Assembly: GCA_963965975.1 (NCBI GenBank)
Contig: OZ014420.1
Location: 1,204,001 to 1,268,000, forward strand
Direction of reading: 5' to 3'
Length of the DNA: 64,000 bases
DNA from: Xestospongia bergquistia
Lineage: Eukaryota; Porifera; Demospongiae; Haplosclerida; Petrosiidae
Both the position numbers and the translations under genes were made by a program. Positions 2,327-55,643 of the stretch are shown here, in pieces (the first letter of the stretch is position 1; each line of letters starts with the position of its first letter). The notes under the pieces were generated by a model. The model was given only the letters and a program-made list of their open reading frames with translations, had not been told where the DNA came from and did no database searches.

Positions 2327-5300
2327 TCAGAGCACACTTATCAATGTCAAGACATCAGTGCCTAACACAGGCTTTGCGGTTCCAACAATGAAAATTGTTT
2401 GAATTAATATCTTGAGGTAGAATCTATAATTAAATATAATGAACATACATTAGTGATTAAATTATATAACTTGATCAAAAATCAATCTTATATTACATAC
2501 CGTATTATACTTTTCAAGAAAAGTGCTACGAACACAACGACCCCATGTCTTCATACATGTCTCATTTAATGGATTGTCACACTCATGAGGACAAGAGGGA
2601 GGCAACTGAGGGAATGGTAGTGTGTTAAATGAATAGTAGCAAGCATAACAATTAGTAATAGTACAATTATTTGATTTACAGTCAATACCAGATTCCATAG
2701 GTCTATATGTAAGTTAATGAAAGAGAGGGTTAAAAATTATATTGGATTAGTAACTTACATTGAACAGATGGCACCTCTTTTAACTGTACAAAATTCATGA
2801 CTACATGTTGGAGGGCAATCTATCATGACATAAGACATCTCATTAATAAGAAATCATATTAACAATCAGAGAATAACTTATAAACTTGTCTTTACTGACT
2901 TGAGCATTGCTGTTGACATTCATGTAGACTGAAAAAATTATTCTCATTGGCATAGCAACCTCCATAAATAAATTTTTCACATTTCTGACTAGTAGCATTA
3001 TAAAAGTATCGTGAAAAACTACCATGACATGGACCAGTAAATGGAGGTTGATGACATTGACTAATTTCTATACAAAAAGAGTTAAAATTATATAATAACT
3101 ATAAGTAAAGAATTATATGTGGGAAATTAATAGGATAGGATCTGTTGTTATTACTTATTTATATAAATACCTCTACAAATAGGACAACCACAACTGTCAG
3201 TTTGTGGTCGTGTGCAGTTAGAAGGTAATGGAGCACATTGTAGATTGCAGGATCCTATTCAAATAAGTTATACAATTACAATAAGATATTTGTTAAACAT
3301 TAGATATTGTAGTAATACTTACTGCACTGATCTGTGACATCAGTTCCATTGACTATAAATTTTACTTGACATTGTCCACAATTGTCAAGAACACATTGAG
3401 CATCAGGAAAATTAGAACAGGTTTGTTGATCACAAATATTAGGACAATAAACTGGTGATTTATTAGCAGAACATGAATCTAATAAAATGAAAGCATCAAG
3501 TTAGTTGGATTTTACTATTAACTAACACATACTGCAACTATTTGTGACATTATGACCAGTACTGTTGAAGAATTGTGCTGAACATTGACCATAACTTGAT
3601 GGTATACATATAGCATCAGGTATATTGGGACATTGTGTAGATTTACATGGGTTGCCTAGACATTGTACATCTTGAACACCCTTTCCAGATCTAACACCTG
3701 ATATAAGAACATATTATCATATACAGTGTTTCCTTAATTAATACATCTAAATGAAATTAGTAAATAAGATCAAACAATGTTTATTTTATGGTAAATTAAA
3801 TTAAAGAAAGTCATCCACTACCAACGTTGTCATAGATATTTTTTCTAATGTTTCAACATGTGACTATTAGTCATTTAATTAAAAATAATATTATAAGATT
3901 TATAACATTGTAAAGATCTAAGTGGTTGGGAAAAATTGAAATCATGTTTATTATCACTACTATGTCTTCCTATAAGTGTGAAGCTCAATCTATCAGTTCT
4001 TATCTATGCAAGAATCTTCATCAGGGGATATAAAAAGTCAATTATGATGCAGTTATATATCAACTGATAAAGATTCTTGGATATATGCAAAAACCTCAGA
4101 TTCTTTAAAAATTAAAACTTTAGTTACAGATACCTATAATTAATATGATGCATAAGATGTATTTTTAAAGCAAATTAAGATGGTTTAACAACTTACCACA
4201 TTGTTGTAGACATTTTTTAAAACTATCAAAGTTATTTTTGTTACCACCACAACCACTATATGTGAATTGTTGACATCTATCTATTGCACTATTGTAATAC
4301 CATCGATTAATATTATTAGTGCATGGACCTCTAACTGGTGAGAGTATACACTTGTCTGTAAGAAAATGTAATAATTAATAAGACATTATAATTTACATTC
4401 AAAGAAATTTATTATTATTTGGCTTTACCACAAGCACTTGTGACTTCATTATATCCAATAAAATATCTCGGTTTACAATCATCACACTCATCAGGATAAC
4501 ATTTTGCTCTAGGATAGTCAGGACAAGTATTAATATCACAAATGTCTGAACTACACATTTTGATTGGTTTACCAAATGAACAGCCTACATCAAAGTAATG
4601 TACATTAAAGTTTTGTTTTATATGAAGCCAGAATACAAGTAAATTGATCCACTAACCACAATGCTTAATGCATTCTTTAAGACTCCCAAATTTATTTTCA
4701 TTACCCTCACAACCACCATATGTGAACAGTTCACACTGACTTGAACTAGCATTGTAAAACCAACGAGGAAATCTACCTCTACATGATCCAACTTCAGGAA
4801 GTTTATGACAGACAGCTAAAAAATTGTAACTCATAATATATATTTTCATTGTAGCTATGTATATATGTTTTAACTAATAAATATAATAAACAATATTTAA
4901 TTGAATTAAATAACCTCAAATGAATCATCTCCATACATTACAATAGTCAGTATGAATTCTACTTACACAATTCATGTGTTATTTCAAGTGTTGCAGTACC
5001 AGTGTCATTACAACAATCATTGATACTCATACAAGTATAGTTTCCTGCATCAGATGATGTAGTGGTAAATGTTAGTGGTACATTTATTGACGTCCTTTGA
5101 TTGGGACCACTTATCACATAACTATCAGCATATGAGGTGTCACATGTTATTGTGACAACATCTCCTATAGCAGGACAGATTTTTCCTGCTACACTTGGAG
5201 AACATCGACCACCAAGAGGATTTCCTTGAATGGATGGTGTAACTACATTCACCTTTGAATCTAAACAAGACACAAACATACATAGACAATAATGGTTTAG

Positions 5301-8300
5301 TATTTATTTCTGCTCCTAATTTTATCGTAATAATACAGTACTAACAAATTATTCTTGAACTAACAATATCAAAAAATTATTCACATACTATCATTATATG
5401 TTATAATAATAGTGACTAGATCAGGTAACAAGATATGTACATACCTAAGAGAAGTTTACTGGATTCAGTATCCATTCCAAATTGATTTGAGAGAGTACAA
5501 TTAATAATTGTGTTATGAGCCATTAAATTCACTAAGACTGGTTTAACAAATTGAAGTTCAGCGTCTCTTCCAGCTATACCATCAGGACTGGCTTGAGAAT
5601 AAATGCCATTTAAATGTCCTTCTACTTGTCTTCCATTTACAAAGAATGTGGCTGAAGGTTCTGGTATTATTGGATGAGTTTGAGCACACAGGATTGGTGT
5701 AAAGACTGGTGGTTGATTTAAGCAGACATGTTGTCCAATTAGTACATATTTAGTAGAACCATTTGTGAACAATTTATTTCCTCTTGCAATAGTTGGAGAG
5801 TCACCTAATATTTAAATACATGATATGATAATTACTATTATACTTATATATTATTATAATATATAATAATAATTATAATATTATATAATTAATTAATGTA
5901 TTATGAAGATATATCTTCTGACCTATAGTTCTCACAGTAGATGATGAATTAACACAAAACCTGAGAGAAGGCCCAAAAGGTGCCATTTGATCAAAACAAA
6001 CTTTACAAGTGTAAGTACCAGAGTTCCCTATCTTGGCTTGAGAGGTAATAATTGGTTCAAAAACTTTTAAAAAACTACCATCTGATGATATATAAATTCT
6101 GATAGATAGAGAAAGAGAGAGAGAGAATAAGAGAGAGAGAGAGAGAGAGATCAAGTCATGTATGAACATTAAAAAAATAACATACCCATCAGTACTATTG
6201 GTAACTGTTTGTTGTGAATCATTGAAGGTACCATCTACTTTTATTACAAGAAGTAACCATTCAACCATTATATTAGAAATAGCGCCTCCTCCAGCTATAA
6301 TAATTTTAGTAATTGTTTGAGTACAGTTGAGGGTCAATATAACATCAGGTCGAATTTTTATTAATCGTTTGGATTTATTGCTAGGAAGCTCCATTGTCAC
6401 ATTACCAGCTAAACAAAGAAGAAATATATAATATATATAACATCATAGTATCATCTTACAGTTAATGAATGATCTGCCATCATTGGGGATTTCTAGGGGA
6501 CCAGGCCAGGGGTAATATTCATTTGAAGCATAGTCTAAAATATGAAGTATATGTACACAGATACAATTATTGTCATAATAACAATATATTAAGGCATATT
6601 AAAATAAGAAAAAAATATGCATAAAAAGACAAAAATAAACATCTTTTACTACTAGCTGTATGATTATTATAATATATAAAAATTAGATTAGTTATACCTT
6701 TTAAACACAGAACAGTAGTATTAGTAGTAGCACTATGTCCAACAATGTTAGCACTACAGGTATATATTCCAGCATCATTTGTCTGTACTTGTGAGATAGT
6801 TAGTGTAGTAATAAATAATAATGAGACAGTTGATGTTGATGAAATAGAGATGTGTTCATCAGTTGTAGAGATATTGTTATGAAACCATTTGATTTGTAGA
6901 GAAGATATATTTGGACCAATTTCATTATTAAGAGTGATGTTACATTGAATTATCACCATATCACCAATGGTACGGGACAGGACTGGCTCCATAGAAACTG
7001 ATGATACACTAGTGTCTGAAAATTGAAGGAACAACAATTCTGCAAAATTTAACATTATTACTTACCTTTTACAATAATTGTAATATTTCTTGCTAAGTTT
7101 ATAGACAACAAATCTGATGATACATGACATGTATATACTAAACTGTTATAAGATGGTATTACTGGATTTAATATTAGTTGTTTTGACATAATAGTACCAC
7201 CATTATTAGGTAACAACCATATTATATCACTGTTAGATATAGAAGGTATTGTAGTACAGGTAATGTTAGCTTTACTACCAACAATAAGATCAGTATAGTC
7301 ACCAGCAATAGTGATATTGGGAACTATTATAGTAATAGATGAAGGACAAGATACAAAGAATGATTCATTATGAGTGAAATAAAAGTAACCAGGACCAAAA
7401 TATGTGTCATTTGAAAAATTAGTAAACATTTCTGGAGTAGCATGATTTGTAGTATACACGGTAAACTTGTCTGTTTGTATCATACCAACTACTTGTCCAG
7501 TAATTACATTAGTATTGATAGCAACAAAATTATGATATGAGATGTACTCATAATATTCAACATAATTTACTCTTGTTCTGCTAATAGCAATGATATCCAT
7601 TCCTCCAATGATTAGAATAATATCACCATTTGGTTCAGTACGATTTTTTGGCTCCAGGCAAACAACTTCAGTTATAGCACGAATTACATCATCACGATTA
7701 GTGATTAAAGTACTAAAACCATTTATTGGACGAGGTATGCCCCCAATACCATCAGTTGCAATAGTAACAGGACCATTAATACGTATAGCTGTGCCTCCTG
7801 TACTTACAGCTGGAATACTATCATTTCTAAAATATTTTATAACTCTGTCATTATTGGTCGTAATATTAAAGATCAAATTACCAGTAGCATTATCATAAAC
7901 TAGATACCCAGTTGATGAAACGACGGCATATTGTCTTGAGTCAATAGTTGTCCTTGTTGATCCTGTTAAAGTTATTACATCAGCTCCTCCAATTGTAAGA
8001 CCAATTCTAGCAACACTAATTGCTCTATTAACAACTCTTAAGTTAGCTGGAGGGACAAATGAATTAATAACATTAATAGTACTTTGATCATGAGTGAAGA
8101 AGGCTTCTCCAGAAAGTTGGTTGATGTAAATTTTACCAGGTCCTTGTTGATTAGGACCACTTCCTTGATAAAATTGGACATTTGTGCTTCCACTTTGATA
8201 AACACCTAGTTTTCGGATGTTGGTAGCAGTAAAAACAACATTATTGTTATTGTCAAGAACAGTCACAACATTATCATTGTATATAACACGTTCATTACCA

Positions 8301-11300
8301 CTAATGTCCCTTGAAAATCCACCTGTGAGAATAATAACATGGGTAGTACCAATAGATAGACTTTGGCCATTATCTTTATCTATAATACTTGGTGGTAGAC
8401 CAGTGGGAGTAGGTGAAGGAGATGGTCGTATTGTAGTAGTGGGCAGTACTATTGGTGGAGTAGTTGTTAATACTATTGGTGGAATAACTGGTGTTGTTGT
8501 TGGTGGTGGTGGTGGTGGTGTTGGTTGGACAGTAAGAGTTGAAGCAATAGATGAAATTAGATTGATAATGTTTTGTCTGTCAGTAATAAGTGCTGTCCTA
8601 TCTCCAGGTTGGTAGTAGACAGATAATGGACCAAGTTTAAAACTGATACTATCTCTTGTTCTTGGAGCAGTGTCAGTGTTCCTGTATTGATATACTGTGT
8701 TAGCTTGTACATTAAATATATTTCCTCCTGCCATTGTACTCCCAGTCAAAGTGCTCAAACTATAAGAAATATCATCAGTAGCTCCAAGATCATAACGTTG
8801 AACACTGCTATCCAGAATAATAATATCACTACCTCCAATTGTTAACACAGCCTGTCCAAGTGAATTAGTACGTGTACTTACAGCAAACACAGGATTGTTA
8901 ACAAGATCAATTACATTAGGTGCATTGACAAGAACAGCTTGGTTACCATTGATATAAAGTCGATAAGAACTGTCCACTGATATAGTCTCATCTGAAGCAC
9001 TAGGATAGATAAAAATATTCTGTGCACCAGCTCTATAGTATGTTAACTGAGAAATACCAGTAAATGGTCCTCTAGAGTCAGCAGGTGATAAAGTAATAGT
9101 ACCACCATTATATCGAATGGAATCACCATTTCGTAAAGCCAAATTCATGAAGCCTGTGATATCAACAATGTTGTTACCATTTAGTGTCAATGAAGTAACA
9201 CCATTATTCCATGTTGTTGTGAAGGTAGCAGTACTAGAAGCAATTGTTTGAGTAGTAGTAGCAGAAGTGATAGCATTTTGTGTAGACTGAGATGCTGTAA
9301 AAAAAGCAGTGTCACCATTGATATATAAAACCCCTGGTCCTGAGACAGAAGGACTAGTACCTACATTAATTGAAAATGTATTACCACCAGAGGAAGTCTC
9401 TGATGCAAAAAATGCTATACCAGGGATGGTGTTTGAAGAATATAATACTTGTTGTTGCGCATGTGTTAGTGCAACACCTGAGGGTATATTGATAGTTTGA
9501 CTTATGTCAGATAATGTTATCACATTAAATCCTGCAATACGCACAGCATTACCTGAGACAGTGAATTGAGCTATAGGAATCCCTCCACTTCTAAAAAAGT
9601 CTATAATTTGTTGGAAGATATTATTAGTTATCCTTGAACCAACAGAAAACACAGCACTTTTATTGTTGATAAAAAAGGAATCATACTCCAGAAATGCAGT
9701 CTCTGTATTTTGAAATGGAGTATCCTCAAAACCTCTATCTCCAATACGAATAACTCGATCAATAGGTGAATAACTAGATGAACCAACTTGTAGAACTTTA
9801 GAAGATGATGAATAACTCACTGCTCCAGCAGCATTGTTTAAAACAGTGGAAGATGTTATAATGATAGCACCCTGTCTTGAAAACTCAAAGTTAAATGAGA
9901 CATTCCCTTCATTGCAAATACTAACACTAAATAGAGCACCAAGAGTTTTAAATAGGTTAGTATTTAAAGTATCACTTTGAGAATAGACAGCAACAAATCG
10001 GTTTAAAAAGTTATTTTGACGAACAAGAAGCAATCCAGTAGACACATCCTGAACTCCTTTAGTACCACTAAATACATATGCAATACCCAAGGAAGAAATA
10101 TAGTAGTATCTGGTGATACCAGCTGCTGTAAAGCCTGCTACTCCAGTAGAATATGTAACATTATTTCCAGAATATGTTATTGTCTCATTAGTGGTATTGA
10201 GATAACGTACAAAACTATAACCAGATAGTTGCATCACTGTTGTACCATCAATAATTAAATTGTTACCAAGAGTAATAGTGGAAGGATTAGTCACTTGAAA
10301 ACTGACACCACTAGCAAGACCTCCACCAGGAAGTATTATATGAGTGAAGGTATATTGGATGCGTTGTTCATTAAAGATGATTATAATTGTTGTTGTATTG
10401 TCATTGGCTACTTGAATATTGACTATTGAGGAAGCGTTTAACTGAAATGATCCTGGTATATAAGGAGGATCTGGAGGTGGATCTAGATAATAAGATTTAT
10501 AACAATTGTTTTATTGATATAAAGCAGCCAAAAGTCAGTAATAAATGAAAGAATACACAGTATTTTATTCTATCAATAGCTTTGTCTTAGATTTTTCACT
10601 TAAAAAACCACTGCGGTATAATTAACTGAGGCCTTTCTTACTATAGGCTAATCAACATGATTTGATCTCAATACCAAGTTACAACAAAGTCAAACCTAGT
10701 CTAACCCAACATTGTTCTTTTCCTTTTTGGCATTGTCATCTCTGTATTTTTCATTAAAAATAATTTTTTTAATTATTTGTTTCCATTTTTTAGGTATATA
10801 AAAGTATACCATGTCTGACCTAAGCATGAAGAATCACTTATCTGGGCAGAGAGAGTTTATAATAGGAAGTGCTTATAGGTCCAACAGGAAGTCACACCTA
10901 TTGTATACGGCTAATGGTTAGGGTTTAGGGGGTGGAAATCAGTTTAATATACAATGAAGTATGTACTTCCTACTGGACCTGCCTTTGAAAATAATGCCTC
11001 TGCAGCTGTAATTTTTGATCTAGCAGATCATAGGTGACTCAATCAACCATTTGCTCAAAACAGAACCATAACTATAGTTATTGTAGGTTTGAAAGAGTTA
11101 TGTAATCCTTGACTGAACAGTTCACTACTCCAAGGCATTGGAGCAGCTACAGTCTCTTTTCCAGTAATAAATCAGAACATTTGGAGTGACAACCTCGATT
11201 CACGTGATCACATGGTGCTGCTCACGACCAAGCTCAGAACTCAGATTTAATTATTATTAATTAGTGTTATAATAATTGTTATTAATTTAATTATTAACTT

Positions 11301-13077
11301 ATAAAGTGTACATAATTATATTCAAATATTTAATAATTTTCTCGAAAGGAAGCAATCAGGGAGCAGGTCCAAATCACAATTGCTTCAATCAATTTTTCTC
11401 TCTTAAATACTTAACTTGATGAATGAAATTATACACTGTACTATTGAATACAATATATATTCACTGCTCTTTACCAGGGACACAAATATATGAGTTTGTA
11501 TCTTTGACAATAGCCTACTATTTTTTGATATACTTTTCACTGCACTAGCCATGAGAAAAGTATATAATTGTAGTGTTTTTAATAAATAAACAATACATAA
11601 TTAATAACTATGTTATTGTCTTACTTGAGTCACAACTCTGTTGATTACAGGTCTCAAACCAAACAGGTTGTACACTAATAAAATAATCAGCAAAGGGACA
11701 GCAGTTTTCAGTAAGTGTGTGTGAACAAAATCGATAAACAACACCATCCTTATCTACACACTCTGGTAACATAGTCCTGACACCACCACCACAAGAGACA
11801 GTACACTAAAGAATAGAAGATAAATTTTAAATCACATTTTTTATCATGATTAGTTTAACAATTCTACTGTGACCAATAGACTTTCATTTCATTTCATAAT
11901 TTATTAAAGGAGAGGAAATGGATTCCCAATGGAAGCCCACCAACCAAATTATCTTTTGTTACATGTCATGCATAAAGTTCAATATATTATATTATTATAT
12001 TACTTACATTTGAAGGACCACCTGTTACTACAGTGAGCGTCCTTGAAGCTTCTCTTTTTGTCTATATAAAAATAACAATAAACCACACAGCTATGCCAGT
12101 ATGTAGTTATATCCACCATATTATTTTAATATGCCTATCAGTAAAGTTTAACTATTGTCAAAACATACCCTAGTAATTGTGATAAATTGTCACATACTAT
12201 ATATAGCATTTATCTTCAGCTGTTGCTATTCATTAAAAATATTTGCTACAATTTTTTTGAAAGCTAAAAACATACTCAACACTTATAGTCTCCATTTATC
12301 CACCACAGGTAGGTGACAATACACTATAAACATGATATAGATCATAGTATGTTTATGTATGAAATTTGTAATATTTCCAAATAAGGTTACACATGTTACA
12401 TTAGTAAAAGATAGCTTATAATTCTAAGGAAAGTTACATAACTTACAGTAACATGACCACAATAACATCTGGTCATCTTACTATAAGTTTTGCTAGATAC
12501 TTATAATTAATAATAAAAACCACATATCATGAAATTAAATGAGAATAACCTAAAGAAGTAGCTATAAGTGGGACGACAAAAATCTTTAGCCAAATTTGTA
12601 AAAGTAACAAACTTAGCAGCTGCTGCACTTTTAATGAAAAACCACATAACATGAAAGTTTAATGAGAATAAACACTTAAAGTAGCTATGGGTAGAATAAC
12701 AAAAAACATTATTATCACAAAACTATAACTGAGCTTTTAAAGATCTAAAATTGAATCAAGTCATGGACTTTACATGATTCTGTGAAGCAATGTTACAAGT
12801 ATGTCAGAAATGTCTTAACAATGCTGTCCATATATTATTATAATTCAAAAAGACTTGGGAACAGTTTATTTACAATTGCCTACAAAACAGGTACTAATTA
12901 TAGAGTCAAGAAGTAAACTGTTTTCATTTCCATTGCAATTGCAAGTACATACTATTAAATGTGATCTTACAACAACCAGTCTCACAGCTGCAAACATTAA
13001 CTAAATAAGAGAAAAGAGAGTTATATCATGTAAGTCTCCATTAATACACTCACCAAAATAATCCCAACAGGAGCCAT
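2327..13077 (-). CDS. Gene A: secreted TSP1 / beta-repeat / Ig / Kunitz protein (papilin-like mix)
   Basis: Predicted extracellular or matrix protein of about 2,181 aa. Exons: 13,054-13,077; 12,971-13,000; 12,008-12,061; 11,625-11,805; 7,066-10,482; 6,698-7,015; 6,460-6,534; 6,186-6,408; 5,923-6,098; 5,445-5,804; 4,967-5,260; 4,657-4,815; 4,429-4,584; 4,197-4,355; 3,533-3,697; 3,323-3,478; 3,171-3,254; 2,900-3,067; 2,759-2,819; 2,501-2,702; 2,327-2,410 (TGA). All junction phases agree and the sum is divisible by three. Order: a signal peptide split over two short exons (MAPVGIILLMFAAVRLVV), a TSP1 repeat (CTVSCGGGVRT), a roughly 1,000-residue unrecognised repeat region, Ig domains, Kunitz, Cys-rich, Kunitz, three Cys-rich exons, Kunitz, and Cys-rich. 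There is no membrane segment, so it is probably secreted. Met at 13,077 gives the better signal peptide; an upstream in-frame Met lies at 13,122. TSP1 plus Kunitz plus Ig recalls papilin, but the repeat region does not. Confidence 0.8.
2501..4815 (-). other. Kunitz and Cys-rich C-terminal block of gene A
   Basis: Ten of the final exons encode three Kunitz/BPTI domains (4,657-4,815, 4,197-4,355 and 2,900-3,067; spacing C...G.C...RWFYN...C..F.YGGC..N.N.F....C...C). Between and after them are Cys-rich modules: two like CPN.C...TC..FPDAQC...CGQC, one with CGCPICRG (3,171-3,254), and the last exons at 2,759-2,819 and 2,501-2,702. Kunitz domains usually inhibit serine proteases, so a protease-inhibitor role is likely but unproven. 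Confidence 0.8.
4009..4079. repeat. Intronic inverted repeat (hairpin) in gene A
   Basis: Arms CAAGAATCTTCATCAG (4,009-4,024) and CTGATAAAGATTCTTG (4,064-4,079) pair with one mismatch around a 39-nt loop. The same hairpin occurs in the equivalent intron of gene C near 45,393-45,465. Confidence 0.55.
4967..6534 (-). repeat. Five-exon Ig cassette in gene A (E1-E5)
   Basis: This is one copy of a cassette found throughout the locus. E1 (6,460-6,534) is a 25-codon linker with NEYYPWPGP. E2 (6,186-6,408) and E3 (5,923-6,098) form one Ig split by a phase-2 intron. E4 (5,445-5,804) starts DSPTIARGNKLF and E5 (4,967-5,260) holds NPPGGRCSP and GNYTCMSIND. Cassette ends are phase 1, so it can be inserted or lost without frame damage. 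The E3 acceptor is preceded by a CT-rich microsatellite. Confidence 0.8.
7066..10482 (-). other. Giant 3.4-kb exon of gene A with a tandem beta-rich repeat of unknown family
   Basis: This one exon (phase 1 at both ends, 1,138 codons) holds a degenerate repeat of about 95-125 residues. Each unit opens with a motif like LTIGGADVITL (near 8,005), LTIGGSDIIIL (8,852), LTLNGNNIVDI (9,195), VRIAGFNVITL (9,553), LSIGTTHVIIL (8,364) or LIIGGMDIIAI (7,626). Most units close with a motif like GPGKIYIN...AFFTHDQST, GPGVLYINGDTAFFTASQST or a weaker form. A Pro/Thr-rich linker (about 8,370-8,540, PTPPPPPPTTT) splits the array. The last 90 or so codons are an Ig-like domain with Cys in ANITC and YTCHV. The region is rich in Asn, Ser, Thr, Ile and Val and poor in Cys, as expected of an extracellular beta-fold. 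I recognise no family. Confidence 0.75.
10483..11624. other. Long intron of gene A between the TSP1 and giant exons
   Basis: A 1.14-kb intron with no coding exon that I can see. It contains an inverted repeat: AGGTCCAACAGGAAGT at 10,877-10,892 and its near complement at 10,965-10,980, a small MITE-like structure. The neighbouring intron 12,062-12,970 shows no feature I can support. Confidence 0.5.
10877..10980. repeat. Short MITE-like inverted repeat
   Basis: Arms at 10,877-10,892 and 10,965-10,980 are complementary over 16 bases with two mismatches. They flank about 70 bases of non-coding sequence. No clear target duplication is seen, so the call as a mobile element is weak. Confidence 0.35.
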
Positions 13078-13665: not shown

Positions 13666-14498
13666 ATTTTAAGTAAGAAAGATAATTGTATTTTTTATTT
13701 TATTATATAAATAGCTAATAGTATCATTAAAATATTTTAAGAATAATATTAAAGTAATAATGAGATATCATGTATATGTAATCTCTGCTTTGCCCAAATA
13801 TGGCAATTACAGTCTAGCAGTATGTTCACAATACAAACAACACGGAATTAACTCTATACACTTTTGAACATCGTATACAAATCTACTCTAAGCAAATACA
13901 TAACTTTTTATCGCATCATGTTGAGTTAGAGATAGTCACAACATTATAGTTCAGGCAACAGTCACGCTGTCACATATCATGGTTAAATTTTTCATATTTT
14001 GACATTTCTTCTGCATATTCTGAAAGAACTTCATGACAAAATATGTACTGCTCCTAACAATAACAATATTATCACTTATTATATCTACTACGCTAAAACA
14101 TACCACTTCTTTGACTAGTCCTGCTCTCTGACTTCTAGCTTTCTTTATGAACTGAAATATATCAGCTACTCCCTCTGTCTTTACTCTCTCAAGTTCAGAG
14201 TAGATACTCACAAATGTACCACTTTTACCAACACCATCACTTTAACAAATACAATACTCACATGCACACACATGTATATAGTACATGACTTACTTGCATA
14301 CAACAGTAATAGGTTTGTTACCAGTTTTACTTTGATTTTTAACTATGGTATCAAACATATTGAGAAGTGAAGATCCAGTCAGTGGTTTTGTATGTTCATA
14401 CCAGCTATCATACCAGAAGATAGACACTGACATTGTCTGATCAGAATTATCCTAAATATTTTAATATCAGTTACTGCTAACATTCATTTTGTATGTAC

Positions 14499-14660
14499 TG
14501 TACTAATATTGTTTAACAAAGTATTATTGATTTCTTAAAGGAACTCCGTTTACAAGATGGAAAGTCAAATTATATAGACAGTATACAGGATGTGGTTAAA
14601 CTAAGTAAACATACATTTAATTAAGCAACTAAGAATCATAATAATAATACATTTATTACA
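14499..14660 (-). repeat. Copia 3' LTR
   Basis: 162 bp, starting TGTACTAATATTG and ending CATTTATTACA on the plus strand. It carries an 8-bp insertion relative to the other LTR. Confidence 0.9.
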
Positions 14661-17821: not shown

Positions 17822-17832
17822 GGTTCAGCTAG

Positions 17833-17852
17833 AGGATCCTGGGCTCATAACC
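17833..17852 (-). other. Copia primer-binding site matching the anticodon arm of initiator tRNA-Met
   Basis: Directly inside the 5' LTR the plus strand reads CTGGGCTCATAACC, which resembles the anticodon stem-loop of initiator tRNA-Met (one base different from the common CTGGGCCCATAACC). Copia elements are known to prime from an internally cleaved iMet half-tRNA, so this placement fits the family. Confidence 0.65.
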
Positions 17853-23123: not shown

Positions 23124-23128
<5 letters not shown>

Positions 23129-23169: not shown

Positions 23170-23175
<6 letters not shown>

Positions 23176-24295: not shown

Positions 24296-24334
<39 letters not shown>

Positions 24335-37099: not shown

Positions 37100-37153
<54 letters not shown>

Positions 37154-41346: not shown

Positions 41347-41707
41347 TTCACAAACATATCAATTGTAAAAGGAATTAATTATTTATAGTAAGTAAAACCA
41401 ATAAATGAAATGGTCTTAAGTAAGAAAGATAATTGTATTTTTTATTTTATTATATAAATAGCTAATAGTATCATTAAAATATTTTAAGAATAATATAAAA
41501 GTAATAATGAGATATCATGTATATGTAATCACTGCTTTGCCCAAATATAGCAGTTATAGTCTAGCAGTATGTTCACAATACAAACAACATGGAATTAACT
41601 CTATACACTTTTGAACAAATCTACTCTAAGCAAATACATAACTTTTTATTGGATCATGTTCAGTTAGAGGTAGTCATAACATTATAGTTCAGGCAACAGT
41701 CACGCTG

Positions 41708-43702: not shown

Positions 43703-46700
43703 TCAGAACACACTTATGAATGTCAAGACATCAGTGCCTAACACAGGCTTTGTGGTTCCAACAATGAAAATTGTTTGAATTAATATCTTGAGGTAAAATC
43801 TATAATTAAATATAATGAACATACATTAGTGATTTAATTATAATTATAACTTGATCAAAAATCAATCTTATATTACATACCGTATTATACTTTTTAAGAA
43901 AAGTGCTACGAACACAATGACCCCATGTCTTCATACATGTCTCATTTAATGGATTGTTACACTCATGAGGACAAGAGGGAGGCAACTGAGGGAATGGTAG
44001 TATGTTGAATGAATAGTAGGAAGCATAACAATTAGTAATAGTACAATTATTTGATTTACAGTCAAGACTAGATTCCATAGGTCTATATGTAAGTTAATGG
44101 AAGAGAGGGTTAAAAATTATATTGGATTAGTAACTTACATTGAACAGATGGCACCTCTTTTAACTGTACAAAATTCATGACTACATGTTGGAGGGCAATC
44201 TATCATGATATAAGACATCTCATTAATAAGAAAGGATATTAACAATCAGAGAATAACTCATAAATTTTCTTTTACTGACTTGAGCATTGCTGTTGACATT
44301 CATGTAGACTGAAAAAATTATTCTCATTGGCATAGCAACCTCCATAGATAAATTTTTCACATTTCTGACTAGTAGCATTATAAAAGTATCGTGGAAAACT
44401 ACCATGACATGGACCAGTAAATGGAGGTTGATGACATTGACTAATTTCTATACAAAAAGAGTTAAAATTATATAATAACTATAAGTAAAGAATTATATGT
44501 GGGAAATTAATAGGATAGGATCTATTGTTATTACTTATTTATATAAATACCTCTACAAATAGGACAACCACAACTGTCAGTTTGTGGTCGTGTGCAGTTA
44601 GAAGGTAATGAAGCACATTGTAGATTGCAGGATCCTATTCAAATAAGTTATACAATTACAATAAGATATTTGTTAAAGATTAGATATTGTGGTAATACTT
44701 ACTGCACTGATCTGTGACATCAGTTCCATTGACTATAAATTTTACTTGACATTGTCCACAATTGTCAAGAACACATTGAGCATCAGGAAAATTAGAACAG
44801 GTTTGTTGATCACAACTATTAGGACAATAAACTGATGGTTTATTAGCAGGACATGAATCTAATAAAATGAAAGCATCAAGTTAGTTGAATTTTACTATTT
44901 CCTAGCACATACTGCAACTATTTGTGACATTATGACCAGTACTGTTGAAAAATTGTGCTGAACATTGACCATAACTTGATGGTATACATATAGCATCAGG
45001 TATATTGGGACATTGTGTAGATTTACATGGATTGCCTAGACATTGTACATCTTGAACACCCTTTCCAGATCTAACACCTGATATAAGAACATATTATCAT
45101 ATACAGTGTTTCCTTTAATTAATACATCTAAATGAAGTTAATAAATAAGATCAAACAATGTTTATTTTATGGTAAATTAAAGAAAATCATCCACTACCAA
45201 CATTGTCATAGATATTTTTCTAATGTTTCAACATGTGACTATTAGTCATTTAATTAAAAATAATATTATAAGATTTATAACATTGTAAAGATCTAAGTGG
45301 TTGGGAAAAATTGAAATCACGTTTATTATCACTACTATTTCTTGCTATAAGTGTGATTATTAAAAAGCTCAATCTATCAGTTCTTATCCATGCAAGAATC
45401 TTCATCAGGGGATATAAAAAATCATTTATGATGCAGTTATATATAAACTGATAAAGATTCTTGGATATATGCAAAAACCTCAGATTCTTTAAAAATTAAA
45501 ACTTTAGTTACAGATACCTATAATTAATATGATGCATAAGATGTATTTTTAAAGCAAATTAAGATGGTTTAACAACTTACCACATTGTTGTAGACATTTT
45601 TTAAAACTATCAAAGTTGTTTTTGTTACCACCACAACCACTATATGTGAATTGTTGACATCTACCTATTGCACTATTGTAATACCATCGATTAATATTAT
45701 TAGTACATGGACCACTAACTGGTGAGAGTAAACATTTGTCTGCAAGAAAATGTAATAATTAATAAGACATTATAATTTACATTCAAAGAAATTTATTATT
45801 ATTTGGCTATACCACAAGCACTTGTGACTTCATTATATCCAATAAAATATCTCGGTTTACAATCATCACACTCATCAGGATAACATTTTGCTCTAGGATA
45901 GTCAGGACAAGTATTAATATCACAAATGTCTGAACTACACATTTTGATTGGTTTACCAAATGAACAGCCTACATCAAAGTAATAATGTACATTAAAGTTT
46001 TGTTTTATATGAAGCCAGAATACAAGTAAATTGATCCACTAACCACAATGCTTAATGCATTCTTTAAGACTCCCAAATTTATTTTCATTACCCTCACAAC
46101 CACCATATATGAACAGTTCACACTGACTTGAACTAGCATTGTAAAACCAACGAGGAAATCTACCTGGACATGATCCAACTTCAGGAAGTTTATGACAAAC
46201 AGCTAAAAAATTGTAACTCATATAATATATTTTCATTGTAGCTATGTGTATATGTTTTAACTAATAAATATAATAAACAATATTTAATTGAATTAAATAA
46301 CCTCAAATGAATCATCTCCATATATTACAATAGTCAGTATGAATTCTACTTACACAATTCATGTGTTATTTCAAGTGTTGCAGTACCAGTGTCATTATGA
46401 CAATCATTGATGCTCATACAAGTATAGGTTCCTCCATCAGCTGATGTAGTGGTAAATGTTAGTGGTGCATTTATTGATATCCTTTGATTGGGTCCACTTA
46501 TCACATAACTGTCAGCATATGAGGTGTCACATGTTATTGTGACAACATCTCCTATAATAGGACAGATTCTTCCTGCTACACTTGGAGAACATCGACCACC
46601 AGGAGGATTTCCTTGAATAGATGCTGTAACTGCATTTACTATTGAATCTAAACAAGACACAAACACATATATAGACAATAGTGGTTTAGCATGAATGTAT

Positions 46701-47498
46701 TGTAAAAGTTTTTTATTATTCTTTCACATCAAACATTAGAAAATTACTTACATATTATTATTATTAATATGATATTATATGTTAGTAATAGAGACTAGAT
46801 CTAGATAACAAGATATGTATGTACACCTACCAAAGAGAAGTCTACTGGATTCAGTATCCATTCCAAATTGATTTGAGAGAGTACAATTAATAATTGTGTT
46901 ATGAGCCATTAAATTCACTAAGACTGGTTTAACAAATTGAAGTTCAATGTCTCTTCCAGCTATACCATAAGGACTGGCTTGAGAATAAATGCCATCTAAA
47001 GTTCCTCCTACTACTTGTCTTCCATTTACAAAGAATGTGGCTGATGGGTCTGGTATTATTGGATGAGTTTGAGCACACAGGATTGGTGTAAAGACTGGTG
47101 GTTGATTTAAGCAGACATGTTGTCCAATTAGTACATAATCAGTAGAACCATTTGTAAACAATTTATTTCCTCTTGCAATAGTTGGAGAATCACCTAATAT
47201 TTAAATATATGATATGATAATTACTATTATTCTTATATATAATTATAATATATAACAATAATTATAATATTATATAATTAATTAATATATTATGAAGATA
47301 TATCTTCTGACCTATAGTTCTCACAGTAGATGAAGAATTAATACACCTCCTGAGAGGAGGCCCAAAAGGTAGCATTTGATCAAAACAAACTTTACAAGTG
47401 TAAGTACCAGAGTTTCCCAGCTTGGTTTGAGAGCTAATAATTGGCTGAAAGACTTTTAAGAAACTACCGTCTGAAGATATATGAATTCTGTGTGTGTA

Positions 47499-47537
<39 letters not shown>

Positions 47538-50233
47538 AAGAGATCAAGTCATACATGAACATATTAAACAATAACATACCCATCAGTACTACTGGTAACT
47601 GTTTGTTGTGAATTATCAAAGGTACCATCTACTCTTATAACAAGAAGTAACCATTCGATCATTATATTAGATATAGAGCCTCCTCCAGTCATAATAATTG
47701 TATTAACTATTGGAGTACAGTTGAGGGTCAACATAACATCAGGTCGAATTTTTATTAATCGTTCAGATTTATTACTAGGAAGTTCCATTGTCACATTACC
47801 AGCTAAAACAAAGAAGAAATATATAATATATATACCATCATAGTATCATCTTACACTTAATGAATGATCTGCCATTATTAGGGATTTCAAGGGGACCGGG
47901 CCAGGGGTAATATTCATTTGGAGCATAGTCTAAGATACAATATGTATACAGATACAATTATTGTCATAATAAGAATATATTATTATATATACTGTCATTA
48001 TAATTATTATTGTTGAGACAACTTGACAGACATTATTAAAATAAACAAGATTATATTCAAAACAATCATCCTATAATTGTTTGGAAGATACTGACTTTAC
48101 AATTAAACATTGAATAGAGCTAAAAGATCAGATAATTAGAAGCAGTGTCTGTGGAAGACTAATAGCTATAAAATGCTAGAAATATATGCAGAGAAGAAAC
48201 CTAGTGAAAAGCTTTGTGCAAGATTACTCACACCCACCATTATAGCACTTGCAGTTAATGTTAATAAAAGTCATTAGTTGCTATATACATAAGTGGTTAA
48301 AGGATAGTGCTATCATTTCTTGGCATTGTTACTATGCCAGTAGGAGTAGAATCTTTGAACACAAAGTGACAATAAATTTGTAATTTTCATTATTAAAAAT
48401 ACCTTAGATTATGGTCATTAACATTAGAACTTAATTTTTAATTTGTGAATTGCTAAACGTAATACAACAAGTACATGTGATTGTTATATTGTTATCACTT
48501 TGCAAACAAAAATACTCCTCAACTAATGACCTTAAATTAGAAGGACATGTGTCACATGTGTAATAATATTATTTACAATCTATAAGATAATAGGCATACA
48601 TTACTGAATCATACATTAAAATAAGGTATACATTTTGTCAATCATTATAGTTTCATGCAATGTCTTGCATGAAACAATAATGTTTATATACAAACTTTCC
48701 TAAAGCATTCTATGCATTTAGACTTACAGGTTACTGGTTCTAATCTCAGTGTTGACGTCCTCATTCCACATTCATTAGTGACAGTACACGTGTACGATCC
48801 AAAACCATTAGAAGTCACAATCATAATAGCAGGTGAATTAGTTGATAACACATTTATAGACCCACCAGCTACAAAAGCAATAGTGTAATTAAAGACACTA
48901 GCTTGACATGTGAAAGTAACTCGGTCTCCTATATTGGCACAGACTCTGTTCCCATTACTAAGTGGAGTACATCCATTACCTATAATACCTGGATATGTTC
49001 CAGCTAATATAGGCTGAGGAGGAGAACCTAATATTTAAAAAATATATGTAATTTACATTAAACATTTGTCAATCCATCCATATTTATAATAGTTAGTGTG
49101 AATTCTACTTACACAATTCAAGTGTTACAGTACCAGTGTCATTATGACAATCATTGATACTCATACAAGTATAGGTTCCTGCATCAGCTGATGTAGTGGT
49201 AAATGTTAGTGGTCTATTTATTGACGTCCTTTGATTGGGACCACTTATCACATAACTATCAGCATATGAGGTGTCACATGTTATTGTGACAACATCTCCT
49301 ATAATAGGACAGATTTTTCCTGCTACACTTGGAGAACATCGACCACCAGGAGGATTTCCTTGAATAGATGCTGTAACTGCATTTACTATTGAATCTAAAC
49401 AAGACACAAACACATATATAGACAATAGTGGTTTAGCATGAATGTATTGTAAAAGGTTTTTATTATTCTTTCACATCAAACATTAGAAAATTACTTACAT
49501 ATTATCATCATTAATATGATATTATATGTTAGTAATAGAGACTAGATCTAGGTATGTACACCTACCTAGTACAAGTCTACTGGATTCAGTATCTATTCCA
49601 AATTGATTTGAGAGAGTACAATTAATAATTGTGTTATGAGCCATTAAATTCACCAAGACTGGTTTAACAAATTGAAGTTCAGTGTCTCTTCCAGCTATAT
49701 CATCAGGACTAGCTTGAGTATAAATACCATCTAAACCTCCTCCTACTATTTGTCTTCCATTTACAAAGAATGTGGCTGATGGGTCTGGTATTATTGGATG
49801 AGTTTGAGCACACAGGATTGGTGTAAAGACTGGTGGTTGATTTAAGCAGACATGTTTTCCAATTAGTACATATGTGGTAGAACCATTTGTGAACAATTTA
49901 TTTCCTCTTGCAATAGTTGGAGAATCACCTAATATTTAAATACATGATATGATAATTACCATAATACTTATATATAATTATAATATATAACAATAATTAT
50001 AATATTATATAATTAATTAATATATTATGAAGATATATCTTCTGACCTATAGTTCTCACAGTAGATGAAGAATTAATACACCTCCTGAGAGGAGGCCCAA
50101 AAGGTAGCATTTGATCAAAACAAACTTTACAAGTGTAAGTACCAGAGTTTCCCAGCTTGGTTTGAGAGCTAATAATTGGCTGAAAGACTTTTAAGAAACT
50201 ACCGTCTGAAGATATATGAATTCTGTGTGTGTA

Positions 50234-50272
<39 letters not shown>

Positions 50273-53200
50273 AAGAGATCAAGTCATACATGAACATATT
50301 AAACAATAACATACCCATCAGTACTACTGGTAACTGTTTGTTGTGAATTATCAAAGGTACCATCTACTCTTATAACAAGAAGTAACCATTCAATCATTAT
50401 ATTAGATATAGAGCCTCCTCCAGTCATAATAATTGTATTAACTATTGGAGTACAGTTGAGGGTCAACATAACATCAGGTCGAATTTTTATTAATCGTTCA
50501 GATTTATTACTAGGAAGTTCCATTGTCACATTACCAGCTAAAACAAAGAAGAAATATATAATATATATAACATCATAGTATCATCTTACACTTAATGAAG
50601 GATCTGCCATTATTAGGGATTTCAAGGGGACCAGGCCAGGGGTAATATTCATTTGGAGCATAGTCTAAGATACAATATGTATACAGATACAATTATTGTC
50701 ATAATAAGAATATATTATTATATATACTGTCATTATAATTATTATTGTTGAGACAACTTGACAGACATTATTAAAATAAACAAGATTATATTCAAAACAA
50801 TCATCCTATAATTGTTTAGAAGATACTGACTTTACAATTAAACATTGAATAGAGCTAAAAGATCAGATAATTAGAAGCAGTGTCTGTGGAAGACTAATAG
50901 CTATAAAATACTAGAAATATATGCAGAGAAGAAACCTAGTGAAAAGTTTTGTGCAAGATTACTCACACCCACCATTATAGCACTTGCAGTTAATGTTAAT
51001 AAAAGTCATTAGTTGCTATATACATCAGTGGTTAAAGGATAGTGCTATCATTTCTTGGCATTGTTACTATGCCAGTAGGAGTAAAATCTTTAAACACAAA
51101 GTGACAATAAATTTGTAATTTTCATTATTAAAAATACCTTAGATTATGGTCATTAACATTAGAACTTAATTTTTAATTTGTGAATTGCTAAACGTAATAC
51201 AACAAGTACATGTGATTGTTATATTGTTATCACTTTGCAAACAAAAATACTCCTCAACTAATGACCTTAAATTAGAAGGACATGTGTCACATGTGTAATA
51301 ATATTATTTACAATCTATAAGATAATAGGCATACATTACTGAATCATACATTAAAATAAGGTATACATTTTGTCAATCATTATAGTTTCATGCAATGTCT
51401 TGCATGAAACAATAATGTTTATATACAAACTTTCCTAAAGCATTCTATGCATTTAGACTTACAGGTTACTGGTTCTAATCTCAGTGTTGATGTCCTCATT
51501 CCACATTCATTAGTGACAGTACACATGTACGATCCAAAACCATTAGAAGTCACAATCACAATAACAGGTAAATTAATTGATAACACGTTTATAGACCCAC
51601 CAGCTACAAAAGCAATAGTGTAATTAAAGCCACTAGCTTGACATGTGAAAGTAACTCGGTCTCCTATATTGGCACAGACTCTGTTCCCATTACTAAGTGG
51701 AGTACATCCATCACCTATAATACCTGGATATGTTCCAGCTAATATAGGCTGAGGAGGAGAACCTAATATTTAAAAAATATATGTAATTTACATTAAACAT
51801 TTGTCAATCTCCAACCATATTTATAATAGTTAGTGTGAATTCTACTTACACAATTCAAGTGTTATGGTACCAGTGTCATTACGACAATCATTGATACTCG
51901 TACAAGTATAGGTTCCTGCATCAGCTGATGTAGTGGTAAATGTTAGTGGTGTATTTATTGATGTCCTTTGATTGGGACCACTTATCATATAACTATCAGC
52001 ATATGAGGTGTTACATGTTATTGTGACAACATCTCCTATAGCAGGACAGATTTTTCCTGCTACACTTGGAGAACATCTACCACCAGGAGGATTTCCTTGA
52101 ATGGATGGTATAACTACATTCACCTTTGAATCTAAACAAGACACAAACATACATAGACAATAATGGTTTAGTATTTTTTTCTACTCCCGATTTTATTGTA
52201 AATATTAAAGTACTAACAAATTATTCTTGAACTTACAATATTAAAAAATTATTCTCATATTATCATTATATGTTAGTATTAGAGACTAGATCAGGTAACA
52301 AGATATGTACACATCTACCTACCTAAGAGAAGTCTACTGGATTCAGTATCCATTCCAAATTGATTTGAGAGAGTACAATTAATAATTGTGTTATGAGCCA
52401 TTAAATTCACTAAGACTGGTTTAACAAATTGAAGTTCAGTGTCTCTTCCAGCTATACCATAAGGACTAGCTTGAGAATAAATGCCATCTAAACCTCCTAC
52501 TATTACTTGTCTTCCATTTACAAAGAATGTGGCTGATGGGTCTGGTATTATTGGATGAGTTTGAGCACACAGGATTGGTGTAAACACTGGTGGTTGATTT
52601 AAGCAGACATGTTGTCCAATTAGTACATATGTGGTAGAACCATTTGTGAACAATTTATTTCCTCTTGCAATAGTTGGAGAATCACCTAATATTTAAATAT
52701 ATAATATGATAATTACTATTATACTTATATATTATTATAATATATAATAATAATTATAATATTATATAATTAATTAATATATTATGGAAATATATATTTC
52801 CTGACCTATAGTTCTCACAGTAGATGATGAATTAACACACCTCCTGAGAGGAGGCCCAAAAGGTTGTATTTGATCAAAACAAACTTTACAAGTATAAGTA
52901 CCAGAGTTCCCTATCTTAGCTTGAGAGGTAATAATTGGTTCAAAAACTTTTAAAAAACTACCATCTGATGATATATAAATTCTGATAGATAGAGAAAGAG
53001 AAAGAGAGAGAGAGATCAAGTCATACATGAAAATATTAACAATAACATACCCATCAGTACTATTGGTAACTGTTTGTTGTGAATCATCAAAGGTACCATC
53101 TACTTTTATTACAAGAAGTAACCATTCAATCATTATATTAGAAATAGAGCCTCCTCCAGTTGTAATAATTGTACTAATTATTGGAGTGCAGTTGAGGGTC

Positions 53201-55643
53201 AACATAACATCAGGTCGAATTTTTATTAATCGTTTGGATTTATTACTAGGAAGCTCCATTGTCACATTACCAGCTAAAACAAAGAAGAAATATATAATAT
53301 ATATAACATCATAGTATCATCTTACAGTTAATGAATGATCTGCCATCATCAGGGATTACTAGGGGACCAGGCCAGGGATAATATTCATTTGGAACATAGT
53401 CTAAAATATAAAGTATATATACACAGATATAATTATTGTTATAATAACAACATATTCTTATATACTATCATTATATTATTGTCGATATGACTTGATAGAT
53501 ATTATTGAAATTGGAAAAAAAGTAAGATGCATAAAAGGACAAAAAAAACATCTTTTCATAGGTTGTGTATTTCTATAACATATATATGTTCCTAAAGCAG
53601 TAATAACATATGACAATAGCTGTCATTGTGTCTAAAGGATAACTTAATATAATCTATACAACACACTGATAGAGTAATATTTATATGTAAATGACATGTG
53701 ACAATGGAATTCACTACAACAGGTGAGATAACTATTGATAAATAATAGCAATAGTAAAATATAGTTTGAACTAATAATCACAATAAGAAATGTCTCCACA
53801 TATTGTAATATTTAATGTCAATTCAACTTACACAATTCAAGTGTTACAGTACCAGTGTCATTATGACAATCATTGATACTCATACAAGTATAGGTTCCTG
53901 CATCAGCTGATGTAGTGGTAAATGTTAGTGGTCTATTTATTGACGTCCTTTGATTGGGACCACTTATCACATAACTATCAGCATATGAGATGTTACATGT
54001 TATTGTGACAACATCTCCTATAACAGGACAGATTTTTCCTGCTACACTTGGAGAACATCGACCACCAGGAGGATTTCCTTTAATAGATGCTGTAACTGCA
54101 TTCACTTTTGAATCTAAACAAGACACAAACACATATAAAGACAATAGTGGTTTAGCATGAATGTATTGTAAAAGTTTTTTATTATTCTTTCACACCAAAC
54201 ATTAGAAAATTACTTACATCATTATTATGATATTATATGTTAGTAATAGAGACTAGATCTAGGTAACAAGATATATACACATGTACCTACCTAAGAGAAG
54301 TCTACTGGATTCAGTATCTATTCCAAATTGATTTGATAGAGTACAATTAATAATTGTGTTATGAGCCTTTAAATACACTAAGACTGGTTTAACAAATAGA
54401 AGTGTAGTGTCTTTTCCAGCTATATCATCAGGATTGGCTTGAGAATAAATGCCATCGATACTTCCTCCTACTATTTGTCTTCCATTTACAAAGAATGTGG
54501 CTGATGGGTCTGGTATTATTGGATGAGTTTGAGCACACAGGATTGGTGTAAATAATGGTGGTTGATTTAAGCAGACATGTTGTCCAATTAGTACATATGT
54601 GGTAGAACCATTTGTGAACAATTTATTTCCTCTTGCAATAGTTGGAGAATCACCTAATGTTTAAGTACATGATATGATAATTACTATTATACTTATATAT
54701 AATTATAATATATAACAATAATTATAATATTATATAATTAATTAATATATTATGGAGATATATCTTCTGACCTATAGTTCTCACAGTAGATGAGGAATTA
54801 ACACACCTCCTGAGAGGAGGTTGTATTTGATCAAAACAAACTTTACAAGTATAAGCACCAGAGTTTCCCAGCTTGGCTTGAGAGCTAATAATTGGTTGAA
54901 AGACTGTTAAATAACTGCCGTCTGATGATATATAAATTCTATGTGTGAGAGAAGGAGATATCAAGTAATACATGAACATATTGAACAATAACATACCCAT
55001 CAGTACTATTGGTAACTGTTTGTTGTGAATCATCAAAGGTACCATCTACTCTTATTACAAGAAGTAACCATTCAATCATTATATTAGATATAGAGCCTCC
55101 TCCAGTCATGATAATTGTATTAACTATTGGAGTACAGTTGAGAGTCAGCATAACATCAGGTCGAATCTTTATAATTCGTTCAGATTTATTGCTGGGAAGT
55201 TCCATTGTCACATTACCAGCTAAAGCAAAGAAGAAATATATAATATAAATAACATCATATTATCATCTTACAGTTAATGAATGATCTGCCATCATCTGGG
55301 ATTACTGTGGGACCGGGCCAGGGGTAATATTCATTTGGAACATAGTCTAAAATATAAAGTATATGTATAAAAATACAATTATTGTCATAATAACAATATA
55401 TTATTATATACTATCAATATATTATTGGTGATATGACTTGACAGACAATATTGAAATTAGAACACCAATGGGTGAGATTAGTATACTCACCAATGGTGAT
55501 TGCTGGAGCATTGCGTACTTAATTAAATATAATATATATACAACATATATATATATATACTTACTGCTACTTTGTTGTGAACATCTAAACTGAAGAGAAA
55601 TGACAACAAGTGCCAAAGAGAATAGTATTTTCATCTTTGTCAT
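43703..55643 (-). CDS. Gene C: secreted Ig-cassette / Kunitz protein
   Basis: Predicted secreted protein of about 2,183 aa (6,552 nt, phases consistent). The signal peptide exon 55,565-55,643 begins MTKMKILFSLALVVISLQF. Four Ig cassettes follow. C1: 55,272-55,346, 54,997-55,219, 54,772-54,938, 54,291-54,653, 53,832-54,113. C2: 53,326-53,400, 53,051-53,273, 52,806-52,981, 52,323-52,685, 51,850-52,131. C3: 50,590-50,664, 50,315-50,537, 50,047-50,222, 49,566-49,928, 49,113-49,394. C4: 47,855-47,929, 47,580-47,802, 47,312-47,487, 46,831-47,193, 46,354-46,647. An extra Ig exon follows C2 (51,463-51,762) and C3 (48,728-49,027). The C-terminal block copies gene A: 46,044-46,202, 45,813-45,968, 45,581-45,739, 44,913-45,077, 44,703-44,858, 44,551-44,634, 44,280-44,447, 44,139-44,199, 43,881-44,082, 43,703-43,786. 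It has no TM helix. C1 E3 is 9 nt shorter than its paralogs but stays in frame. Confidence 0.85.
43881..46202 (-). other. Kunitz and Cys-rich C-terminal block of gene C
   Basis: Three Kunitz domains (46,044-46,202; 45,581-45,739; 44,280-44,447) alternate with Cys-rich modules in the same order and exon lengths as gene A at 2,501-4,815. The final exon at 43,703-43,786 adds 27 residues and the stop. Confidence 0.8.
46354..51849 (-). repeat. Recent tandem duplication of an Ig cassette unit in gene C
   Basis: Two units, 46,354-49,112 and 49,113-51,849, each run from an E5 exon up through E4, E3, E2, E1 and the extra Ig exon. From about 47,200 to 49,070 against 49,930 to 51,790 they differ only at scattered bases, introns included. 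This duplication is much younger than the spread of the cassette to other genes. Confidence 0.85.

Follow-up and report, generated by a model that had tools for sequence, protein, structure and literature searches.

In a window of 64,000 nucleotides from the sponge Xestospongia bergquistia (contig OZ014420.1, here C10, positions 1204001-1268000), four minus-strand genes (A, B, C and D) carry copies of the same immunoglobulin (Ig)-like exons joined to different C-terminal modules, namely those of an adhesion G-protein-coupled receptor (GPCR; gene B), a receptor tyrosine phosphatase (RPTP; gene C) and two Kunitz proteins (genes A and D). Taken as a whole, these genes are probably best explained as part of a birth-and-death cluster of multi-Ig genes, placed at about C10:0.97-1.26 Mb, whose ectodomains have been recombined onto different outputs, and the pattern resembles a shuffling of phase-1 exons among receptor classes. 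From the sequence comparisons, the structural and evolutionary side of this explanation is highly probable, and the part in which opposed outputs would serve a common ligand is doubtful. The presence of the same Ig exons in the GPCR, the RPTP and both Kunitz genes had been claimed in an earlier note on the window, and family searches indeed located them in all four; of the limits given there, 4967 is where an E1 exon ends and 55643 is the ATG of the gene A signal-peptide exon. The analysis covered C10:1104001-1368000, C10:306001-334000, C9:1410001-1418000 and stretches of C10:0.98-1.04 Mb, and the genome-wide searches covered the 146.5 Mb assembly in 21 contigs. Coordinates are window-based, negative values lying to the left of the window, and gene models were obtained with a small custom gene finder, for which long open frames served as the training set, and were cross-checked with family matches.

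The shared element is a cassette of about 1.6 kb with five exons, named by motif NEYYPW, AGNV, IYISS, GDSPT and E1 (the further families PIPNG, PGM, EPPD, IPAIR, VPNITI and DTSVS were named likewise), of which AGNV and IYISS form a split pair. It is carried by GPCR B and by GPCRs E and F to the left of the window, by the Kunitz genes A and D, by three genes with TSP1 domains (T1-T3) and by RPTP C, which is dead. The concatenated units are 89-97% identical in DNA (11 units, the copy on C9 left out), with a mean nucleotide identity of 91.9% between GPCR and Kunitz units. The genome-wide search with E1 returned 16 full-length matches on C10, at 87-96% protein identity to the query, and the next place in the genome reached 49%; because of this gap, the recurrence of the cassette in the window is not attributable to chance, and the copies are, as the earlier note required of them, each other's closest relatives in the genome. 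Both E1 and GDSPT matched at C10:1.17-1.26 Mb and C10:0.31 Mb and, at 49% and 46%, at a single place on C9; the weaker E1 matches, at 39-42%, were other Ig-like exons on C10 and C3. The C9 copy, the next relative of the cassette, has 42-54% identity across its four larger exons; in the 8 kb examined there (C9:1410001-1418000) the cassette alone was visible and no downstream module was found. The edges of the homology lie at or near exon borders: between the Kunitz unit A4 and GPCR B it extends over 1.7 kb, introns included, and ends no more than 16 bp from the end of the E1 exon, and the same was observed between gene D and GPCR E.

Gene B (39.2-27.2 kb) encodes a signal peptide (39157-39234, matched in translation by the gene A signal exon), the cassette (37200-38759, from exon models, family matches and nucleotide identity), ten further Ig-like exons and then the KAELM and SIPPT Ig exons, the stretch from PIPNG to SIPPT occupying 30449-36769 (Ig_3 7e-26 for a spliced part of it), followed by HRM-like, GAIN, GPS and seven-transmembrane (7TM) regions at 27154-29908. 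With the exon junctions joined by eye, the 7tm_2 match reached 88.3 bits (6.4e-25) against a cut-off of 20.6, and the last exon alone gave 29.7 bits (4.8e-7). The GPS match (60.1 bits, 2.9e-16) preserves the HL-(S/T) cleavage motif as CNHLTSF, and the HRM match stayed under its cut-off of 26.2 (19.4 bits, 0.0014). By its predicted secretin/adhesion-type 7TM domain and GPS, gene B is an adhesion GPCR. Its exon order is cassette, PIPNG, E1, PGM, E1, PGM, E1, PIPNG, EPPD, IPAIR, IPAIR, and that of gene C is cassette, PGM, E1, PIPNG, EPPD, IPAIR and then FN3; the near-identical order described in the earlier note was recovered, and its view that a GPCR and a phosphatase once shared an ectodomain is supported.

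The Kunitz genes present the cassette without a membrane module. Gene A (55.6-43.8 kb) comprises a signal-peptide exon (55566-55643, ATG at 55643; 73% of 26 aa identical to the GPCR B signal exon), four cassette units (46354-55346, at 55.3-53.8, 53.4-51.9, 50.7-49.1 and 47.9-46.4 kb in family searches, 93-97% identical in nucleotides) with a SPPQ Ig-like exon behind units 2 and 3, and three Kunitz domains with Cys-rich exons (43806-46203; Kunitz_BPTI 67-72 bits per exon) before the stop. The last open frame closes at 43806, and an alternative end is the stop just past the third Kunitz exon, at ~44.28 kb. Gene D (about 13-2.5 kb) comprises a predicted signal exon, a TSP1-like exon (11625-11805; TSP1_ADAMTS 0.0062, below cut-off), a long exon with an open frame of 1150 aa (7061-10510) that had no Pfam match, a DTSVS Ig exon (6698-7016) common to GPCRs G and I and to the RPTPs of the array described below, one cassette (4967-6534, from exon models and family matches) and a Kunitz/Cys module with its stop (2462-4816; three exons, 66-71 bits) that is a near-copy of the gene A module and also has an alternative end behind the third Kunitz exon. 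Altogether, six of six Kunitz exons tested in both genes exceeded the Kunitz_BPTI cut-off, at 66-72 bits. No transmembrane (TM) exon was seen in either gene when the frames were inspected by eye, without a TM predictor, and both are probably secreted. For the soluble form proposed in the earlier note, gene A has its own signal exon, and in gene D a signal peptide is predicted from conservation with GPCRs G and I. The long exon of gene D recurs, in a shorter form of about 750 aa, in these two GPCRs.

Each Kunitz gene is followed by a 5′-truncated phosphatase remnant, which the earlier note had overlooked. The one 3′ of gene A (41692-43009) begins mid-exon, its homology to gene C starting at 19268, skips exons of the second phosphatase domain and has no TM match; the one 3′ of gene D (484-1678) was identified by homology to phosphatase exons and contains a stop. 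A reading of the Kunitz genes on into these exons was rejected given the mid-exon start, the missing TM match, the loss of half of the first phosphatase domain and, behind gene D, the stop. The Kunitz module and the truncated remnant together form a recent segmental duplication of ~5 kb, in which 0-4.9 kb corresponds to 41.3-46.3 kb at about 96-99% identity.

Gene C (26.2-14.1 kb) has the architecture of a receptor tyrosine phosphatase, with FN3 and catalytic phosphatase domains over the Pfam cut-off and a TM exon recognized by eye, and it is a pseudogene in this assembly, since three of its Ig exons are frameshifted, its second phosphatase domain contains a TGA and no signal exon of its own was found. 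The Ig ectodomain (21557-26198, with the cassette at 26.2-24.0 kb) was aligned in nucleotides to intact paralogues, which revealed a 10-bp insertion in GDSPT, 1-bp and 10-bp deletions in PGM, a 1-bp deletion in E1 and an IPAIR exon whose 5′ half is not homologous to the paralogues. At the expected site of the signal exon there is a phosphatase fragment instead (26207-26480, 83% identical to 18989-19267), preceded by a copy of a Kunitz-gene flank. The FN3 and TM exons (20623-21497; fn3 1.6e-9) and the first phosphatase domain (18686-19824; Y_phosphatase 2.6e-65, with HCSAGVGRTG and WPDHGVP) follow, the latter being well conserved, and the second domain (14104-18583) carries the in-frame TGA in the alignment to paralogues. 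A long terminal repeat (LTR) retrotransposon, presumably copia-like from inspection by eye, lies at 14498-17979 on the minus strand, apparently just inside an intron of domain 2, with 128-bp LTRs that are 98% alike and a 5-bp target duplication; its empty site is visible in both truncated phosphatase remnants. The frameshifts and the TGA led us to reject gene C as a live gene, a condition that the earlier note had not recognized, and since it is broken, the pairing of GPCR and phosphatase as drawn within the window is not live in this assembly.

The sharing between the two receptor classes is carried instead by a tandem array of about 11 RPTPs on the plus strand of C10:0.97-1.08 Mb, which matches gene C at 87-94% in domain 1 (11 places) and at 85-91% in FN3 (12 places, of which one is partial with a stop and one spans 84 of 109 residues). 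These genes appear live from their sequence, including RPTP U (C10:1032.4-1042.7 kb), in which a signal peptide and a TM segment recognized by eye, Ig and FN3 domains and two phosphatase domains totalling 450 bits lie in a frame given by the gene model; its neighbour RPTP V was analysed minus the last exons, and RPTP W minus the signal exon and second phosphatase domain. Nine exons of RPTP U, from 1034219 to 1037071, share 71-93% protein identity with GPCR I, and for six of these the identity to GPCR G is 72-89%. In this comparison ISMDF covers 42 residues in the GPCR I model (84% at full length), and the best GPCR I copy of LNIIDK lies upstream, the in-order copy reaching 77%. The three RPTP U exons ahead of VPNITI match RPTP V at no more than 41% or not at all, and the identity of the two phosphatases is 75-88% for FN3 and 86% for the exon of domain 1; RPTP W carries SNNPT at 93%. 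In DNA, with introns included, the shared blocks extend over 4.05 kb at 85% between RPTP U and GPCR I, 2.47 kb at 90% between RPTP U and GPCR G, and 2.2 kb at 89% between RPTP W and GPCR I. The blocks of RPTP U start ~30 bp ahead of an exon, and their 3′ edges come to within about 40 bp of the exon predicted as the first FN3 exon of the phosphatase.

Of the exons shared by GPCRs and RPTPs, VPNITI, ISMDF and SNNPT were searched genome-wide (further shared exons are DTSVS, LNIIDK, DTYV and IPDIIV), and by this search these three are confined to the C10 cluster, with no outside place above about 38%. VPNITI was found at 80-100% in eight places of the array, three in GPCRs G and I and one in gene D (elsewhere at most 42%), ISMDF at 80-99% in seven places of the array and one each in GPCRs G and I (next 37%), and SNNPT at 86-100% in five places of the array and one in GPCR I (next 36%); an additional, damaged ISMDF copy lies at 1028.8-1029.1 kb. 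The 3′ end of the long exon of gene D (7067-7324) is this VPNITI exon, and the block that it forms with DTSVS (6.7-7.3 kb) is 91% identical to RPTP U over 640 bp and 92% identical to GPCR G over 649 bp. Since VPNITI and DTSVS also occur in gene D, one Ig pair is present, by these matches, on GPCR, phosphatase and probably secreted outputs. The divergence at synonymous sites (dS) between RPTPs and GPCRs in three shared Ig exons was 0.136-0.181, inside the within-class range of 0.123-0.198. Moreover, the 5′ 5.2 kb of gene D is 88% identical to GPCR G, and the fact that this identity starts about 0.6 kb upstream of the predicted start of gene D suggests that the two genes share control as well as coding sequences. 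The proposal that GPCRs and phosphatases shared an ectodomain thus gained strength from the Ig pair of gene D and from the blocks that GPCRs G and I have in common with the live-looking array.

The exons show the phase symmetry expected of shuffled domains. Counting exons whose predicted borders fit the family match, phase 1 was found on both sides of 52 of 63 in the window and of 93 of 111 across the region; poorly predicted borders remove some exons from this count, IYISS of units A3, A4 and C among them. In the flanking genes the same gene finder gave 25 of 192 internal exons of at least 90 nt. The phase symmetry stressed in the earlier note is thus supported, with the correction that AGNV (1-2) and IYISS (2-1) are a pair split by a phase-2 intron. 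Mechanistically, copies of phase-1 ectodomain exon blocks would have been joined by recombination to one C-terminal module or another, either GAIN/GPS-7TM in adhesion GPCRs, TM plus two phosphatase domains in RPTPs, or Kunitz or TSP1 domains in probably secreted proteins, and this may have proceeded by recombination in introns and gene conversion within the tandem array.

Several observations weigh against this explanation. The cassette is on no live RPTP, as E1 and GDSPT had no match anywhere in the RPTP array in the genome-wide search, so that the phosphatase output assigned to the cassette in the earlier note was not sustained; the three-way sharing is limited to the VPNITI-DTSVS pair, and no large block stands on every live output. 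Cassette identity follows output or locus weakly (93.4% within versus 91.9% between; permutation p 0.02 with 8 units, four of which belong to one gene), and with the T genes added the p value was 0.0008. In the GPCR/RPTP block tree, topologies grouping the two GPCRs gave approximately unbiased (AU) test values of 0.157, 0.297 and 0.018; two of the three are not rejected, so GPCRs and RPTPs may form separate classes, and these trees do not separate the classes, nor do they reject a separation. The cassette exons gave matches to Pfam Ig profiles below the cut-off only. Because of these matches and of the E1 structure model (pLDDT 67), whose top-ranked PDB matches are mostly Ig (E 6e-3 for the best, with no match reaching E <= 0.001), E1 is likely to be Ig-like; GDSPT is putatively so, its classification by fold having been dropped with an unusable model (pLDDT 32). 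The gene finder, in turn, over-merged neighbouring genes and guarantees open frames by construction, so gene borders were drawn from signal exons, stops and homology; the borders and expression of the cluster genes are model-based predictions. Lastly, the cassette pN/pS of 0.42-0.69 indicates no overall positive selection, and lesions are common (gene C, the GPCR fragment H, the truncated remnants and gene F′), which is also the picture of plain neutral turnover. The trees per exon, which the earlier note had proposed as a check, were built for 12 units common to all four exons, with gene C and F′ left out because their GDSPT comes in two pieces; AGNV (AU 0.143), GDSPT (0.069) and E1 (0.578) are compatible with the concatenated tree and IYISS rejects it (0.003), in alignments that are short and weakly resolved and from which we draw no strong conclusion.

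A serious rival is neutral birth and death, in which a repeat-rich Ig cluster generates chimeras again and again through tandem duplication, unequal crossing-over and gene conversion; ectodomains would then be shared incidentally, and the genes would have neither a ligand in common nor coordinated signalling. The damaged copies (gene C, H, F′ and the two phosphatase remnants), the recent duplication behind genes A and D and the absence of overall positive selection in the cassette would all be expected from it, and we give it an even chance, its being true in part seeming probable. On the other side, the products look constrained, because the family exons of GPCRs B, E and F and of Kunitz genes A and D are free of stops, RPTP U and the analysed part of RPTP W model as long open genes, and the GPCR core has a dN/dS of 0.27-0.46. 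In the main explanation, the shared ectodomains may still bind the same or similar ligands, and one ligand could be read by a G protein on some cells and by a phosphatase on others, with soluble forms that compete or coat, possibly in self/non-self or microbe recognition; that the genes share a ligand, are expressed together and act in immunity or allorecognition is inferred. An extended version, which we regard as doubtful, is a combinatorial recognition system in which phase-1 shuffling would distribute one evolving pool of Ig ectodomains among adhesion GPCRs, receptor phosphatases, and single-pass and secreted proteins; if so, a single ligand, perhaps an allotype or microbial marker, would be read by G-protein and phosphatase arms and tuned by soluble forms.

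Splicing across genes could join one ectodomain to alternative 3′ modules, with gene C fed from the start of GPCR B, and the head-to-tail arrangement of these genes on one strand, their mostly phase-1 exons and the missing signal exon of gene C would suit it; it is very improbable given that the Ig exons of gene C are frame-broken, that genes A, B, E and F each have their own conserved signal exon and that the RPTPs that look live are encoded on the other strand, RPTP U with its own signal peptide by eye. Collapsed or misjoined haplotypes could likewise mimic chimeras and frameshifts among such similar repeats, and several 1-bp lesions of gene C could be base errors, yet this artefact hardly accounts for its 10-bp insertion, 10-bp deletion, non-homologous exon half and stop, or for a sharing that recurs across several genes at 85-92% rather than ~99%.

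Adhesion GPCRs, like receptor phosphatases, are contact receptors, and to our knowledge a receptor class generally has ectodomains of its own; we know of no pairing of 7TM, tyrosine phosphatase and secreted modules. The LAR/type IIA receptor phosphatases have Ig, FN3, TM and two phosphatase domains, the architecture found here, and the cluster differs from them in that its Ig exons are common to GPCRs alongside. In paired immune receptors, the tails differ by immunoreceptor tyrosine-based inhibitory or activation motifs (ITIM/ITAM) or by adaptor charge. The sponge cluster resembles those of the FcR-like, KIR and PILR type in having near-identical Ig ectodomains on different signalling modules within one tandem cluster (PMC2413239), and it differs in that whole modules are exchanged (7TM versus tyrosine phosphatase versus secreted). 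In the Botryllus fuhc locus, Ig-family genes lie side by side in secreted (fuhc-sec) and transmembrane (fuhc-tm) forms, together with receptors bearing ITIM/hemITAM tails; the available portion of that report mentions neither a GPCR nor a phosphatase that shares this ectodomain (PMC12065747). Allorecognition has been tested at fuhc, and for the sponge cluster it is a proposed role. For Amphimedon, 40 adhesion GPCRs were reported, 28 of them with GPS, with N-termini that include Ig, FN3 and HRM domains, and GPCR B likewise has Ig exons in its N-terminal part; the sections consulted report no ectodomain sharing with phosphatases or secreted proteins (PMC4302439). We recognized no description of an ectodomain shared by GPCRs and RPTPs in the literature searched, whose coverage leaves out most subscription journals. 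One ectodomain on a GPCR and a phosphatase, with soluble forms, would fit, by analogy, a paired-receptor or decoy logic and suggests one recognition surface readable in several ways. The finding matters in that GPCRs and tyrosine phosphatases share ectodomains at the DNA level, recently enough for introns to align; should the ligands be shared too, paired-receptor logic would have been built from modules for which we know of no pairing, in a lineage of animals that is probably early, and sponge self/non-self recognition would have a concrete candidate basis in this cluster.

The remaining members of the cluster lie on the minus strand to the left of the window and include GPCR E (-2.6 to -19.2 kb) and GPCR F (-29.1 to -36.4 kb), both with the cassette, and GPCR G (to -48.7 kb) and GPCR I (to -66.6 kb), which have none, with the broken GPCR fragment H (-49 to -52 kb) between them. 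The 7TM module belongs to a large family, in which at least 70 of 203 matches span TM5-7, on C1, C2, C3, C4, C5, C7 and C10. Gene F′ (-22.7 to -27.8 kb) combines the cassette with a single TM and a tyrosine-rich tail, and was rejected as a further live output because of a frameshift in its signal exon; its tail, at -27.1 to -27.6 kb, has several motifs with tyrosine (YEIT, YERTVYDEI). The range of outputs was extended beyond the earlier note to a fourth kind by the tandem genes T1-T3 at C10:0.31 Mb (306001-334000), 0.9 Mb from the window and on the opposite strand, in which the cassette stands ahead of TSP1_ADAMTS, over the cut-off in all three; these proteins are assumed to be secreted. Upstream of gene A, a minisatellite-like array that is open in several frames occupies 56.1-56.8 kb, and at 57-64 kb there are minus-strand exons that look RasGAP-like (RASA-type) by eye, adjoining long CT/AG simple repeats.

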